In this document: positions 1-4,284 of the stretch, one piece after another
Position numbering within the stretch: position 1 is the stretch's first letter
Layout of the letters: every line of letters begins with the position of its first letter
DNA from: Gammaproteobacteria bacterium
GTDB lineage: Bacteria > Pseudomonadota > Gammaproteobacteria > Steroidobacterales > Steroidobacteraceae
Direction: 5' to 3'
DNA: 43,070 nt
NCBI GenBank assembly: GCA_025358295.1
Contig: JANYJY010000012.1
Span: 1 to 43,070, forward strand
Position numbers and translations under genes: made by a program
The notes under the pieces: generated by a model
What the model saw: only the letters and a program-made list of their open reading frames with translations
What the model was told of the DNA's origin: nothing
Database searches by the model: none

Positions 1-472
1 GGTCGAGATCCTGCAGCCGCAGGTTGAAAAAGAGCGGCGTTTCGTCTACGTACGTCGCGACCGGCTGCACGATGGGCGAGGACTGGACGAATTCCCCGGA
101 CGTCGAGTCGCTGTTCAATCCGCGGATGATCAAACTGGAACCGTTGACGCCGCCAAACGGACCTTTGTCGGTGACGTTGATGCCTGCCAGCGAATGCGCC
201 AGAGCGACCTTGTCGGTTATCCCTGCCCGCTCGAGCGTCGCGCCGGTTATCGCCGTGATGCTGGCGGGAATATTCTGCGCGGACTCCGACCGGCGAGTCG
301 CCGTGACGATCACTTCCTGCAGAGTGTCGCTATCCGCAAACGACGGTCCGCCGTACAGCGCCGCCAGGACGCCGATGGTAACCGAAGTCATCTTGTGCAT
401 TGGACGCATCGAGCGTCGCGTGTGCCGCGTGTACCACTGATCTCGGCGAATCCGGCGTGGAGTACCAGCCAT
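1..472 (-). CDS. TonB-dependent receptor, N-terminal part (cut by window edge)
   Basis: Partial gene: 157 residues are read before the left edge, with no stop. The protein has a basic N-terminus, a hydrophobic signal segment (about residues 29-47, ending SFAD), a TonB-box-like LQEVIVTATRR at 51-61, and then the plug domain (NIPASITAITG, a GLN near 118-120 and a YVDETPL strand). This is the standard start of an outer-membrane receptor that imports a ligand using TonB/ExbBD energy. The ATG at 472 is preceded by GGAG nine bases upstream, which favours it. ATG codons at 409 and 400 would give a more ordinary signal peptide. The substrate cannot be told from the plug alone. The gene lies downstream of the TetR gene on the same strand, but a dyad at 510-526 suggests its own controlled promoter, shared in design with the symporter gene. 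Confidence 0.9.
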   Translation of the reverse strand, partial: MAGTPRRIRRDQWYTRHTRRSMRPMHKMTSVTIGVLAALYGGPSFADSDTLQEVIVTATRRSESAQNIPASITAITGATLERAGITDKVALAHSLAGINVTDKGPFGGVNGSSLIIRGLNSDSTSGEFVQSSPIVQPVATYVDETPLFFNLRLQDLD

Positions 473-509: not shown

Positions 510-530
510 GGTTAATCGAGTTAACCTGGT
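510..530. promoter_or_regulatory. Candidate TetR operator A, before the TonB receptor
   Basis: A perfect 17-bp dyad GGTTAA-TCGAG-TTAACC lies at 510-526, flanked by TGGT. Read on the minus strand it is ACCAGGTTAACTCGATTAAC, which matches site B (1321-1340) at 18 of 20 positions. It sits 38 bp upstream of the receptor start and between the receptor and TetR genes. Its binding by the TetR protein is inferred from position and symmetry. Confidence 0.7.
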
Positions 531-569
531 ACGAAATCTAACAACGCACGATAGTGATGTCAAACGGCA

Positions 570-1214
570 TCAGCGCAATACAAGATGCCTGCTCGCAATA
601 TTCCAAAGCCATTTTTTGCCGGCGCGGATCTCCGCAGAACTGGGTTTGCGCAGCAGCAAGGTGTCATCCGGAAACACCAGCCGGATCAAGAGCGAGGCCT
701 TCAGCAGACGATACACATCGGTTGCATCGGTGGGGCGGAATTCCCCGGCGCGAACCGCCGCTCGCAGCAGCCTGCGCAGTCTGGAATGCATGGCGGCCAG
801 GGGACCGCGCAGCAGATTCGCCTTGAACGAACCGCCGGCCGCGAGCTTCACGTATTCCATGCCTCCGCCGGGCGTTGCGAAGTCGACCAGCGCGAGGCGG
901 ACGTACGCCGGTCGGGACATCATCAGCTCGACGAACGCATCCAATGCCGCGCGAAATGCCGCAACGGGGCTGAGTTCGGGGCGCAATTCAAACTGGCCCG
1001 CCAACAGATGGATGAATCGCCGCGATACCTCGATCAACACATCGTCGCGGCTCTTGTAATGCTTGTAAATGGCCGGAACCTGGACTCCCAAGGGCGCGGC
1101 AATATCCCGCAGCGTGAAGCCGTAGACGCCCTTGACGGCGATCAGGCGTTCCGCCTCGTCGAGAATCCGCTGGCGCGTCGGTGCAGGCGCCTTGCGTGCG
1201 TCGGCCGCTGGCAT
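570..1214 (-). CDS. TetR/AcrR-family transcriptional regulator
   Basis: 214 residues, normal length for the family. The N-terminal helix-turn-helix spans about residues 14-60 (RQRILDEAERLIAVKG, then FTLRDIAAPLGV and recognition helix VPAIYKHYKS). The rest is a divergent ligand-binding and dimer domain typical of TetR proteins. Such proteins usually repress nearby genes until a small ligand binds. It is transcribed away from the NCS1 symporter and lies directly upstream of the TonB receptor. Two near-identical dyads at 510-526 and 1325-1341 flank the gene and are the likely operators. The ligand is unknown; a purine, pyrimidine or hydantoin-like compound is an inference from the symporter next door. 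Confidence 0.92.
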   Translation of the reverse strand: MPAADARKAPAPTRQRILDEAERLIAVKGVYGFTLRDIAAPLGVQVPAIYKHYKSRDDVLIEVSRRFIHLLAGQFELRPELSPVAAFRAALDAFVELMMSRPAYVRLALVDFATPGGGMEYVKLAAGGSFKANLLRGPLAAMHSRLRRLLRAAVRAGEFRPTDATDVYRLLKASLLIRLVFPDDTLLLRKPSSAEIRAGKKWLWNIASRHLVLR

Positions 1215-1320
1215 TTGAATGCTCCCTCGAAGAACGATAGCAAGCGACTCTGGCAGAGTCGTGCCTCCGCCACAACTGGCCTGACGACTTGCCAGTAAGC
1301 CTGCGGTGGTTTAATTTTGC

Positions 1321-1341
1321 ACCAGGTTAACTGCATTAACT
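1321..1341. promoter_or_regulatory. Candidate TetR operator B, before the NCS1 symporter
   Basis: ACCAGGTTAACTGCATTAAC at 1321-1340 contains the dyad GGTTAA-CTGCA-TTAAC (1325-1340, one outer mismatch at 1341). It is the counterpart of site A at 510-530 read in the opposite direction, with 18 of 20 identical bases. It lies just upstream of the symporter coding region and about 107 bp from the TetR start, so it could control the symporter operon and possibly TetR itself. Confidence 0.7.
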
Positions 1342-1362
1342 TCCAGACCTGAGCATAAACGA

Positions 1363-2781
1363 CTGGCCATCGAGCACAAATCGATCGACTACATTGCCGA
1401 ACATGAAAGGCACGGTCGGGTCATCGATCAGGGGCCCTTCTGGTTCCTCGGCAATTTTCATTTCTTTACCATCGCAATCGGCTTTGTCGGACCGAGCATG
1501 GGCTTAAGCTTCGCCTACACCGCGCTTGCGGGTGCGTTTGGAATCCTGTTCGGCACGATTTTCGTGGCGTTCCATGCCTCGCAGGGCGCCGAACTCGGCC
1601 TTCCCCAGATGATCCAGTCGCGCGCACAATTTGGATATCGCGGCGTCGTGGTGGTACTCGTCGGCACGCTCTTTACCTTTGTAGGATTCAACGTCGCCGA
1701 TTCGGTCCTAGTGGCACGCGGCCTGCATGGCATCCTCGGCTGGAACGAAACCGCAGTGACTCTGGCCGCCGCCGCGATCGCCGCCGGAATCGCGGTCTAC
1801 GGCCACGATTGGCTGCATCGTATTTTCCGGGGCTGTTTTTGGATCTGCCTGCCCCTGTACACAATGTTGACGCTTGCCATCGTCACGGGACGGGTCCCGG
1901 CGACCCATCCGGCCATAGGCGGTTTCACTTGGGTGGCGTTCATCGCACAGTTTGCGGCCAGCGCGGCCTACAACATCACTTATGCTCCATCGGTGTCCGA
2001 CTATTCCCGTTACCTGCCGCGCCATACGCCTCCGCATCAGATTATCCTTGCGGTGTTCCTGGGCGCCACGACCGCAGCGATATGGCTGATCTCATTGGGT
2101 GCCTGGCTCGCCACACGGCTCGGCGCGTCCGACGGCCTTGTGGCGCTTCATGATGCGGGAAATCATCTCTTTGCCGGCTTCGGCGTGGTGATGGCGCTCG
2201 CCTCCGTGACGGCGCTCGTGGTGACCATGGGCCTGAATGCGTACAGCGGCATGCTGACGGTGCTCACGGCCCTTAACTCGTTGTTCGCCCTGCGGCCCAC
2301 TCCCCGGCTGCGTTTCGTGACCATCCTCGGTTTGGCGGCGGTCTGGGTTGCGGCGACATTTGCGATTACCGAGAATGCCATTGCACTCTTGTTCGCCACC
2401 CTGACCATCATGCTGTATTTGTTGGTGCCGTGGACATCGGTGAACCTTGCCGACTATTTCTTCGTGCGCCGCGGCCGATACGCAATTACCCATCTGTTCA
2501 TGCCTCATGGGATCTATGGTGCCTGGGGCAGCCGCGGACTGATCGCCTATGCACTCGGTTTCCTCGCCACCTTGCCGTTCTTCGTACTACCCGATGTCTA
2601 CACAGGTCCCGCGGCGCGCGCGCTCGGCGGCGTCGATGTGGGCTGGCTGGTCGGGCTTGTGGTTTCGGGCGCTGTGTATCTGTTCCTGTGCCGCTCGCTG
2701 GATGTGTCGCGGGAGGATGCTGCCATTGCCGCAAGCGAACATGCCTTGCGACGCCCCGTACCGGATCAGGGCGACGCGTAA
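1363..2781 (+). CDS. NCS1-family nucleobase/hydantoin:cation symporter
   Basis: An inner-membrane transporter of the nucleobase-cation-symport-1 family, which imports cytosine, purines, hydantoins or allantoin with H+ or Na+. Visible marks are the N-terminal SIDYIAEHERHG, the glycine-rich GFVGPSMG segment, QMIQSRAQFGYRG and YNITYAPSVSDYSRYLP, with about twelve hydrophobic segments. The first in-frame ATG is at 1498, but the conserved N-terminal region clearly starts before it, from about 1378. Between the in-frame stop at 1312 and 1498 there is no ATG, GTG or TTG. A CTG at 1363 is placed here as a provisional start, giving about 472 residues. A non-standard start, leaderless initiation or a start lesion are all possible. 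The gene is followed after 12 bp by the TPR-sulfotransferase and preceded by operator B. The substrate is not determined. Confidence 0.85.
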   Translation: MAIEHKSIDYIAEHERHGRVIDQGPFWFLGNFHFFTIAIGFVGPSMGLSFAYTALAGAFGILFGTIFVAFHASQGAELGLPQMIQSRAQFGYRGVVVVLVGTLFTFVGFNVADSVLVARGLHGILGWNETAVTLAAAAIAAGIAVYGHDWLHRIFRGCFWICLPLYTMLTLAIVTGRVPATHPAIGGFTWVAFIAQFAASAAYNITYAPSVSDYSRYLPRHTPPHQIILAVFLGATTAAIWLISLGAWLATRLGASDGLVALHDAGNHLFAGFGVVMALASVTALVVTMGLNAYSGMLTVLTALNSLFALRPTPRLRFVTILGLAAVWVAATFAITENAIALLFATLTIMLYLLVPWTSVNLADYFFVRRGRYAITHLFMPHGIYGAWGSRGLIAYALGFLATLPFFVLPDVYTGPAARALGGVDVGWLVGLVVSGAVYLFLCRSLDVSREDAAIAASEHALRRPVPDQGDA

Positions 2782-2793
2782 GGCTGAAGTATC

Positions 2794-4284
2794 ATGGCCA
2801 GTTCGTTGCAGCCCGCGGCCGCGACCTTGCACGAGCACGTTCTGCGTCTCCTGCAAGGCAAGGATTTACGGGCTGCGGAGGCAGCATGCCGCCGCCTGGT
2901 CGGCGCGCATCCCGAGTACGCCCGCGGTTGGCGCACCGCGAGCATCATCGCGCTGCGGCGCGGCGATCCGGCCGCCGCCTTGGCGTCGGTCGATAGAGCG
3001 CGGGCGCTTACGCCGGACGACAATGACGCACTCTTGCTCGACGCCATCGCCACCTTGTTCAGCCGGCTGGGAGATCAACTGACGGCCCGTGCGGTGTACG
3101 ATCACGCGCTCGCACTTGCGCCGGGGCATGCCGGTATTCTCTTTAATCGCGCCACCGCGCGGCGCTTTCTCGGCGAACTGTCCGACGCCGAAGATGACTT
3201 GAACCGCGTCATCGCCGCGCGACCTGCCGATTACGAGGCATACCAGATTCGATCGGACCTGCGCACGCAGACGGCGGCGCGAAATCACACCCAAGAACTC
3301 GAAGGACTTCTCGCACATGGCATCAAGAACTGGTCGAGCGAGGTCCAGATCCGCTACGCACTGGCCAAGGAATATGAAGACCTCGGTGAATACTCCTTGT
3401 CATGGGCTCAGCTTGCCAAGGGAGCGCAGTGTCGGCGCCGGCATTCGCGCTACGACGTCGGCAAGGACGTCGAAACAGTGCGCTGGATCATGGATGCCTT
3501 CCCGGCAGGGCCCACAGAGGACGCCGGCTACCCCAGTACCGAGCCGATATTCGTTCTAGGGTTACCGCGCAGCGGCTCGACCCTGGTCGAGCGCATATTA
3601 AGCAGCCATTCGACGGTGGTCGCCGCCGGCGAACTCAATCAATTCGCGCAGGCCATTGTGCGTGCGGTGCGCAGGCAGCGCGGCGAAGGTCACATCGAGC
3701 GCGCCGAACTCGTCGCGAGTTCGGCGGCCATCGACTTCGCGGCACTCGGTGACGACTATATTCAAAGCACCCGCCCCGTGACCGGGCATCGGCCGCGCTT
3801 CATCGACAAGATGCCGCTTAATTATCTTTATTGCGGACTGATTCACCGGGCGCTGCCGCACGCCAAGATCATCCACGTGTCGCGCCGGCCCATGGCTGCG
3901 TGTTATGCCATCTACAAGACCCTGTTCAAGGACGGCTACCCGTTCTCCTATGATCTTGAGGACCTCGGACGCTATTACGTGGGCTACCGGCAGCTGATGA
4001 ATCACTGGCGCACGACGTTGCCCGGCGCCGTACACGAGGTGAGCTACGAGCACTTGGTGTCCGACCTGGTTGGCGAAACGGGCCGGCTGCTCGAGTTCTG
4101 CGGTCTAGCTTGGGAAGACGCCTGCGTCGATTTTCACCGGAACCCGACGCCCACGACTACGGCGAGCGCCGTCCAGGTCAGACAACCGCTGTATCGCTCA
4201 TCCATCGATCAGTGGCGACATTACGCGGCACAGCTTGAGGGCCTGCGTCGGCAATTGATCGTAGCCGGCATACCGGACGTGTAG
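2794..4284 (+). CDS. Tetratricopeptide-repeat sulfotransferase
   Basis: 496 residues in two parts. Residues 1-175 form TPR-like helical repeats (HEHVLRLLQGKDLRAAEAAC, then units around 40-70, 80-110 and 115-145). From about 250 there is a sulfotransferase domain with the PAPS 5'-phosphosulfate loop PIFVLGLPRSGSTLVERIL (251-269) and the 3'-phosphate-binding segment IIHVSRRPMAACYAIYKTLF near 358-380. The family transfers sulfate from PAPS to an acceptor; TPR-fused members occur in many proteobacteria, often near TonB receptors, with largely unknown acceptors. There is no signal peptide, so it is probably cytosolic. It starts 12 bp after the NCS1 symporter and is probably cotranscribed from the operator-B promoter. 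A role in modifying the imported compound is only a guess. Confidence 0.9.
   Translation: MASSLQPAAATLHEHVLRLLQGKDLRAAEAACRRLVGAHPEYARGWRTASIIALRRGDPAAALASVDRARALTPDDNDALLLDAIATLFSRLGDQLTARAVYDHALALAPGHAGILFNRATARRFLGELSDAEDDLNRVIAARPADYEAYQIRSDLRTQTAARNHTQELEGLLAHGIKNWSSEVQIRYALAKEYEDLGEYSLSWAQLAKGAQCRRRHSRYDVGKDVETVRWIMDAFPAGPTEDAGYPSTEPIFVLGLPRSGSTLVERILSSHSTVVAAGELNQFAQAIVRAVRRQRGEGHIERAELVASSAAIDFAALGDDYIQSTRPVTGHRPRFIDKMPLNYLYCGLIHRALPHAKIIHVSRRPMAACYAIYKTLFKDGYPFSYDLEDLGRYYVGYRQLMNHWRTTLPGAVHEVSYEHLVSDLVGETGRLLEFCGLAWEDACVDFHRNPTPTTTASAVQVRQPLYRSSIDQWRHYAAQLEGLRRQLIVAGIPDV

Follow-up and report, generated by a model that had tools for sequence, protein, structure and literature searches.

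The stretch of DNA analysed here, referred to as the window, is a contig of 43,070 nucleotides from a gammaproteobacterium of the family Steroidobacteraceae (assembly GCA_025358295.1, contig JANYJY010000012.1). One end of the window carries genes for a TonB-dependent receptor, a TetR-family regulator and an NCS1-family permease, together with two palindromic dyads and several promoter-like elements. The features are as follows (window positions):

2 to 472, minus strand: N-terminal part of a TonB-dependent receptor, cut by the contig edge (Pfam Plug, 1.5e-5)
510 to 526, no strand assigned: putative operator 1 ahead of the gene for the TonB receptor, a perfect GGTTAA-N5-TTAACC dyad (motif scan of the window)
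535 to 540, minus strand: TAGATT, putative -10 box for the TonB gene, separated from operator 1 by 8 bp (sigma70-like box scan)
558 to 563, minus strand: TTGACA, putative -35 box for the TonB gene, with a spacer of 17 bp (sigma70-like box scan)
570 to 1214, minus strand: TetR-family regulator of 214 amino acids, proposed repressor binding both dyads (Pfam TetR_N, 1.1e-11)
1247 to 1275, minus strand: TTGT-N12-ACTCTGCCAGAGT, a further conserved element preceding tetR and perhaps the promoter of this gene
1289 to 1294, plus strand: putative -35 box TTGCCA of the NCS1 promoter (sigma70-like box scan)
1310 to 1317, plus strand: putative -10 region for NCS1, either TTTAAT (spacer of 15 bp, the scan's choice) or TAATTT (spacer of 17 bp, by eye); kept in the relative G001
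1325 to 1341, no strand assigned: putative operator 2, GGTTAA-N5-TTAACT with one mismatch, in the region that separates the divergent genes tetR and NCS1; kept in G001
1363 to 2781, plus strand: NCS1-family permease, probably from CTG 1363 (Pfam PF02133, 3.1e-38 on 1375 to 2781; N-terminal comparison)
2794 to 4284, plus strand: TPR-repeat sulfotransferase, 12 bases after NCS1 (Pfam Sulfotransfer_3, 3.7e-48, and TPR)

An initial annotation, made from the sequence alone, had described a TetR gene between a TonB receptor and a symporter, and the Pfam matches to the TonB plug, TetR_N and the NCS1 permease agree with it. The longest frame of the TonB gene starts at 472, whereas the codon model favours 400. 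The gene is cut at window base 1, and its remainder was found on another contig (G000:C19:2-1990), where it is 79% identical to the receptor of G001. Thus, the plug domain lies in the window and the rest was assigned to C19 by homology to the G001 receptor; the orthologue of G010 has plug and barrel. The regulator matches the helix-turn-helix model PF00440 with 44.8 bits (cutoff 24), and its C-terminal part matches TetR_C_29 and TetR_C_11, both under their cutoffs. Comparison of a TetR profile with the PDB gave matches at the level of the helix-turn-helix alone (best stretches within profile positions 3 to 106) and hence no hint at a ligand; a tblastn search of plasmid records with the TetR protein gave no match. 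The permease covers positions 2 to 440 of the 440 of PF02133 (132 bits), but reaches 83.7 bits with TIGR00800, below the cutoff of 353, and is thus an outlying NCS1 member. Its frame (1315 to 1497, plus strand) contains no ATG, GTG or TTG between the upstream stop and 1498. CTG 1363-1365 aligns with the GTG start of several NCS1 orthologues and is preceded by operator 2 at a distance of 21 bases; it may be a true CTG start, a lost start or an assembly error. The sulfotransferase gene is likely co-transcribed with NCS1, judging from the gap of 12 bases.

Operator 1, GGTTAATCGAGTTAACC, is a perfect 6-5-6 dyad, and operator 2, GGTTAACTGCATTAACT, is one base short of it; the GGTTAA-N5-TTAAC(C) dyad reported for each of two sites in the initial annotation is therefore present in both. 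The 18 of 20 matching bases claimed for the sites in opposite directions were likewise recovered with ACCAGGTTAACTCGATTAAC (530 to 511, minus strand) and ACCAGGTTAACTGCATTAAC (1321-1340, plus strand). According to a motif profile across loci, the ACCA flank common to both sites is not conserved along with the motif. The exact pattern GGTTAAN5TTAAC has three matches in the window when strands are counted, which correspond to these two places, and a mean of 0.00 in 100 window shuffles. With up to two mismatches, the count is five against a shuffle mean of 2.41, a number that is not unusual since 16 of 100 shuffles reach it; the case hence rests on exactness, placement and conservation. In the entire genome of 4.02 Mb, the exact 16-base form is confined to the two window places, and three further places differ from it by one base (C12, C15 and C46). 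The place on C12 is located inside the end and that on C15 inside the start of a predicted gene. The third, G000:C46:57595-57611 (L123 5596-5612), lies before a gene of 521 amino acids, which is a possible further target. With one mismatch allowed, the dyad has four forward matches in this genome versus 48 for the backwards pattern, as if TTAA-type words were avoided.

Co-occurrence of the dyad with the TetR orthologue

A TetR orthologue is encoded in 15 of 23 genomes of the genus, the own genome included, with 56-77% identity in the other 14. In the family, 23 of 217 genomes have one (E <= 1e-30); this search scored 13 candidates per genome and could miss a copy, and the scoring of all candidates in the genus returned the same 15. 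The exact 17-bp dyad occurs in 16 of the 23 family genomes with tetR and in 2 of the 194 without it (G147 and G165; Fisher p 5e-17), and within the genus alone in 9/15 versus 0/8 (p 0.006), whereby both p values are too small because the genomes are related. All 18 exact dyads of the tetR-containing genomes adjoin tetR. The family totals of the dyad (20 exact sites in 18 genomes) and of the backwards pattern (18 sites in 16 genomes) are nearly equal, so the argument rests on where the sites are. A general regulator of the family was rejected, since just these 2 of 194 tetR-less genomes contain the exact dyad. Seven of the 23 genomes with tetR lack the exact form, and six of these have a dyad with one or two mismatches beside tetR; in the remaining one, G134 (L110), whose TetR protein has the longest branch, no dyad with up to two mismatches is found there.

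For a comparison of neighbourhoods, 27 non-redundant loci were assembled from the window, 14 genomes of the genus, 8 further family genomes and the loci L062, L063 (Osedax symbiont Rs1), L067 and L068; 21 of 25 named loci were dropped as repeats of genomes already counted. Gene maps were made with a codon model, and tetR was located by tblastn in L107 and L108. When every exact dyad of two 6-base halves with a spacer of 0 to 12 was counted up to 350 bp from tetR in 26 loci, the window being left out, GGTTAA-N5 came first with 18 loci. The three that follow (in 7, 3 and 3 loci) are these sites read with an offset, and unrelated dyads reach at most two loci each. With up to two mismatches, 34 sites are located in the 37.5 kb around tetR versus 10 in the other 383 kb of the 27 loci, and six of these ten are at or up to 200 bp before a TonB, an M20 or a second NCS1 gene of the same neighbourhoods. 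A dyad with up to two mismatches is located at most 400 bp from tetR in 25 of 27 loci; up to one mismatch is seen in 24 and the exact form in 19, while the control dyad CCAATT-N5-AATTGG is found seven times in all and never near tetR. L067 has a tetR relative (56%) with no dyad of up to two mismatches nearby. In 5/26 other loci (6/27 with the window), tetR is flanked by sites on both sides, as in the window. The TetR recognition-helix residues V46, P47 and I49-H52 are invariant in the 15 orthologues. A motif profile derived from 40 sites is biased, as the sites were picked by their likeness to the consensus; the exact count in 217 genomes and the unpreset dyad search are free of this bias.

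The initial annotation had read the two sites as parts of one regulon and proposed alignment of orthologous tetR regions as a check. This check was run: 25 of 27 loci keep a dyad with up to two mismatches near tetR, and across 217 genomes the exact form goes along with the orthologue, which supports the regulon reading with the TetR protein as the probable binder.

Paired dyads, 21-22 bp from start to start, were observed in L062 (7812-7850) and L068 (7841-7878) before TonB genes and in L041 (781-818) before a ureohydrolase gene, as if two dimers could sit two helical turns apart.

Promoter-like boxes and position of the putative operators

On the minus strand before the TonB gene, the order is TTGACA-N17-TAGATT-N8-operator 1. 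Before NCS1, TTGCCA is followed by TTTAAT or TAATTT, and operator 2 starts after a further 9 or 7 bases. G001 retains these NCS1 promoter boxes and the operator, but not the sequence after the operator. Sigma70-like boxes were scored across the loci with E. coli weights, a gap of 0-14 bp between box and dyad and shuffles of each site's own upstream sequence as the only control; the scan took 40 of 44 oriented sites, leaving out two in L110 and one each in L067 and L068. The boxes upstream of the dyad beat 95% of the shuffles at 26 of these sites and do not at 14. The score of the TonB promoter in the window is reached by a fraction of 0.005 of 200 shuffles. A promoter preceding the dyad matches the expectation for a repressor that covers the start of transcription. 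The -10 box itself seems to be overlapped by the operator in L062, L068 and, judged by eye, also L063 and L106; either position, after or over the box, fits with occlusion of RNA polymerase.

The dyad is upstream of tetR in 25/27 loci. Of these 25 loci, 12 have a best promoter in the direction of tetR that overlaps a dyad or ends no more than 10 bp ahead of one, and in the other 13 it is 30-100 bp away, as scored with no shuffle control. The window is among the 12, with TTGTGC-N16-TATGCT ending 10 bp before operator 2, and self-repression of tetR is quite possible as an additional effect of such a placement. A second element, TTGT-N12-ACTCTGCCA[CG]AGT, was noticed at 1247-1275 on the minus strand, the right part of which is a perfect 6-1-6 palindrome in the window. 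This right part is present with up to three mismatches at 13 of 27 tetR loci, and in the genus (up to one mismatch) six of eight matches of the element are at tetR, versus none for a backwards control. It could be the tetR promoter or another operator.

What the genomes show directly is the dyads, their conservation with the TetR orthologue, their near-complete lack where it is missing and their position behind promoter-like boxes; binding by TetR, repression and the existence of an inducer are what we infer from this. According to the proposed mechanism, a TetR dimer would occupy the DNA immediately after the -10 box at the TonB and NCS1 promoters and block transcription, and an inducer bound by the C-terminal domain of TetR would lift this block. 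That this TetR protein is the regulator acting at both dyads is very probable. Another regulator, encoded elsewhere, could bind the dyads with tetR as an incidental neighbour, and a CRP-like gene is indeed located next to tetR in two of the 27 loci (L037 and L038). Such a regulator would, however, be expected to leave sites where tetR is absent, and the exact dyad is missing from 192 of the 194 family genomes without the orthologue and always lies beside tetR in those with it, which makes this explanation very unlikely. It is also unlikely that TetR activates the structural genes or mainly controls its own gene. Control of its own gene would agree with the position of the dyad upstream of tetR and with the 12 loci in which a tetR-ward promoter is at the dyad, but the distance of this promoter in the 13 others argues against it, as does the element at 1247-1275, which is clear of the dyad. 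With regard to activation, the sites at the structural genes follow the -10 box or cover it, as is typical of repression. The chance that the dyads are accidental, or an unrelated palindrome such as a terminator, is negligible in our view: the lack of an excess at two mismatches in the window and the family total close to the backwards control would be in line with accident, but no exact match arose in 100 shuffles, 18 of the 20 exact family sites lie beside tetR, and dyads are kept beside orthologues of 53-77% identity, including that of the Osedax symbiont Rs1. Chance dyads were accordingly rejected by the distribution over 217 genomes, the unpreset dyad search and the shuffles. Taken together, we assign a probability of roughly 0.8 to the reading that the dyads are operators of the TetR protein encoded between them, with uptake and breakdown of guanidino compounds as a candidate role of the regulon.

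Proposed target genes and the candidate substrate

The genes next to the dyads are more varied than the initial annotation could see from the window. The neighbourhoods encode TonB receptors, NCS1 permeases, a beta-lactamase-fold hydrolase nearest to NylB, a TPR sulfotransferase, an arginase-family ureohydrolase, a DDAH/ADI-like enzyme, an M20 hydrolase and an amidase; the targets comprise TonB receptors, NCS1, the NylB-like hydrolase and either the ureohydrolase or the DDAH-like enzyme with M20 hydrolase or amidase. Behind the 40 sites are 18 TonB-type, 7 M20, 5 NCS1, 4 NylB-like, 3 ureohydrolase and 2 DDAH-like genes, and one other place. The NylB-like gene is located between operator and NCS1 in G010, G014, G030 and G059 and absent from that place in the window, and in some loci the gene content points to an MFS permease in place of NCS1 for the inner membrane. 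Within 8 kb of tetR, 8 of the 27 loci encode the ureohydrolase, 11 the DDAH-like enzyme (7 with M20, 4 with the amidase), none both and 8 neither, counted at a minimum of 35% identity over 80 residues to one representative and with several contigs ending sooner. On the TetR tree, at least two changes are needed between the ureohydrolase and DDAH states. A gene similar to the TPR-sulfotransferase is located up to 8 kb from tetR in eight of the 27 loci, the window included, often beside a TonB gene, and may have a role in the modification of the receptor or the substrate. In L035, L037 and L038, genes for a SIMPL (DUF541) protein and an NRAMP-like transporter were seen near the regulon, in L035 and L038 beside a dyad and a TonB gene.

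The ureohydrolase of G001 is nearest in the PDB to 3-guanidinopropionase (270 bits) and guanidinobutyrase (248), followed by agmatinase (186); the NCBIfam agmatinase model accepts it as well (196 bits, cutoff 174), which would mean a guanidino amine rather than an acid. Close copies (72-82% identical) are present in four further loci, while those of L062, L063 and L068 are 40-43% identical, the L063 copy being a fragment. Six positions, H153, D175, H177, D179, D264 and D266, which we take to be metal-binding, are invariant in 7/7 aligned proteins of the eight found (the partial L063 protein was left out), all of them from relatives and not from the window. In the DDAH-like proteins, E144, H195 and C290 (numbering of the first row), presumably the catalytic positions, are invariant in 12/12 and align with DDAH structures; these proteins, too, are not encoded beside the window tetR. 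A PDB search gave no match with one DDAH-like protein as query and five with the family alignment, and the protein is far under every NCBIfam cutoff displayed. The M20 protein is above the cutoff of the NCBIfam allantoate amidohydrolase subfamily; its nearest PDB entries are a deacylase and carbamoylase-family amidases, followed by N-carbamoyl-beta-alanine and N-carbamoyl-amino-acid hydrolases.

In the genome of the window itself, a DDAH-amidase pair is encoded on C39 after a GMC-type oxidoreductase gene, the DDAH part being 78% identical to that of G010; no dyad with up to two mismatches was found in the 16 kb examined. The nearest M20 protein is 50% identical. Two ureohydrolase-family genes, about 3 kb apart on C57 (L124), are 38% and 31% identical to that of G001 and its nearest in this genome; no dyad with up to two mismatches accompanies them. 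Since no guanidino enzyme is encoded beside the window regulator, the regulator visibly controls uptake alone in this genome.

A guanidino substrate is named because two unrelated enzyme routes converge under one regulator. The TonB receptor would carry the guanidino compound across the outer membrane, and NCS1, or the MFS permease in some loci, across the inner one. In some species, the ureohydrolase would then open the guanidino group with release of urea; in other species, a DDAH-like deiminase would act, followed by the M20 N-carbamoyl hydrolase, or perhaps the amidase, to hydrolyse the ureido product, the role of the amidase being a guess. We lean slightly towards a guanidino compound as the substrate of the regulon. 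As a competing explanation, the system might take up a nucleobase, a hydantoin or a metal complex, with the enzymes as side functions. NCS1 permeases classically carry nucleobases, allantoin and hydantoins, as stated in the available text of a recent account (PMC13390362), and the allantoate amidohydrolase subfamily of the M20 protein and the NRAMP-like and SIMPL genes of the three loci point in the same direction. Against this speak two unrelated types of guanidino-acting enzymes that replace each other near the regulator (8 and 11 loci, never both) and the sites straight before three ureohydrolase and two DDAH-like genes, so that we give a non-guanidino substrate an appreciable, less than even chance. 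Returning to the guanidino reading, it is a tentative and somewhat doubtful suggestion that the last substrate in the cytoplasm would be a small omega-guanidino acid, for example guanidinopropionate. Equally speculative is a fuller picture, in which the TonB receptor would import a guanidino compound too big or too scarce for porins, the NylB-like enzyme would cut an amide and one of three interchangeable enzyme sets would open the guanidino group under one unchanged operator, all within a so far undescribed TetR regulon that one family of uncultured Gammaproteobacteria would share with a few distant members of the class. If true, this would be a new nutrient route, in which guanidino compounds are scavenged in a TonB-driven manner.

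Comparison with known systems

RutR is also a TetR-family regulator and is involved in the use of a nitrogen compound (pyrimidine); the regulator described here gives a weak match to its NCBIfam model (27 bits, cutoff 368). The RutR operator is TTGACCANNTGGTCAA and differs from the dyad. The solved enzymes nearest to the G001 ureohydrolase, the Pseudomonas 3-guanidinopropionase and guanidinobutyrase (PDB 3nip and 3nio), come from Pseudomonas, where their regulators are of the LysR type. To our knowledge, neither a TonB receptor nor an NCS1 gene belongs to these systems. Among the literature matches listed, with most subscription journals outside the scope, no report of the dyad with this TetR or of a TonB-NCS1-guanidino regulon was recognised.

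A similar operator belongs to BkaR (Rv2506/MSMEG_4718), a mycobacterial TetR repressor of branched-chain keto-acid genes, which binds GTTA-N-T-N4-A-N-TAAC (PMC3920632). As described in the available text of that study, BkaR is a dimeric TetR-type repressor with the half-site GTTA...TAAC, some of its proven sites begin with GGTTAA, and it is located beside a divergent operon. The core of its site comprises 16 bp versus 15 bp here (N5 between GTTAA and TTAAC), i.e., one base more between the halves, and GGTTAA-N5 is the leading dyad around the present tetR genes with all spacings from 0 to 12 counted. Unlike here, the BkaR targets in that text are actinobacterial branched-chain keto-acid genes, and the likeness drawn here is one between operators. 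The new TetR operator motif announced in the initial annotation is thus new in its spacing, whereas the outer half-site was already present in the BkaR sites (PMC3920632).

On the side of transport, an NCS1 transporter carries metformin, a biguanide (PMC13390362). The Aminobacter metformin genes (MetT and MetCaCb) resemble the present set in that an NCS1 permease is combined with ureohydrolase-superfamily enzymes for a guanidine-type compound (PMC13390362, PMC11271267); in the available text of the former account, a TonB-dependent receptor appears in a cited title alone and "tetr" stands for a tetracycline cassette alone. By this precedent, transport of guanidino compounds by NCS1 permeases would be plausible here as well. 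The regulator and its operator form a testable pair with a target list, in bacteria so far known from assembled metagenomes, and point to a substrate class; moreover, additional regulon members can be found with the operator as a marker. Should the guanidino reading be correct, it would tie guanidino nitrogen to TonB receptors and NCS1 permeases, the substrates of which are often unknown. A TetR repressor with palindromic operators before catabolic or uptake genes is a well-known kind of system; the regulator, the operator spacing and the TonB-NCS1-guanidino set appear to be new.
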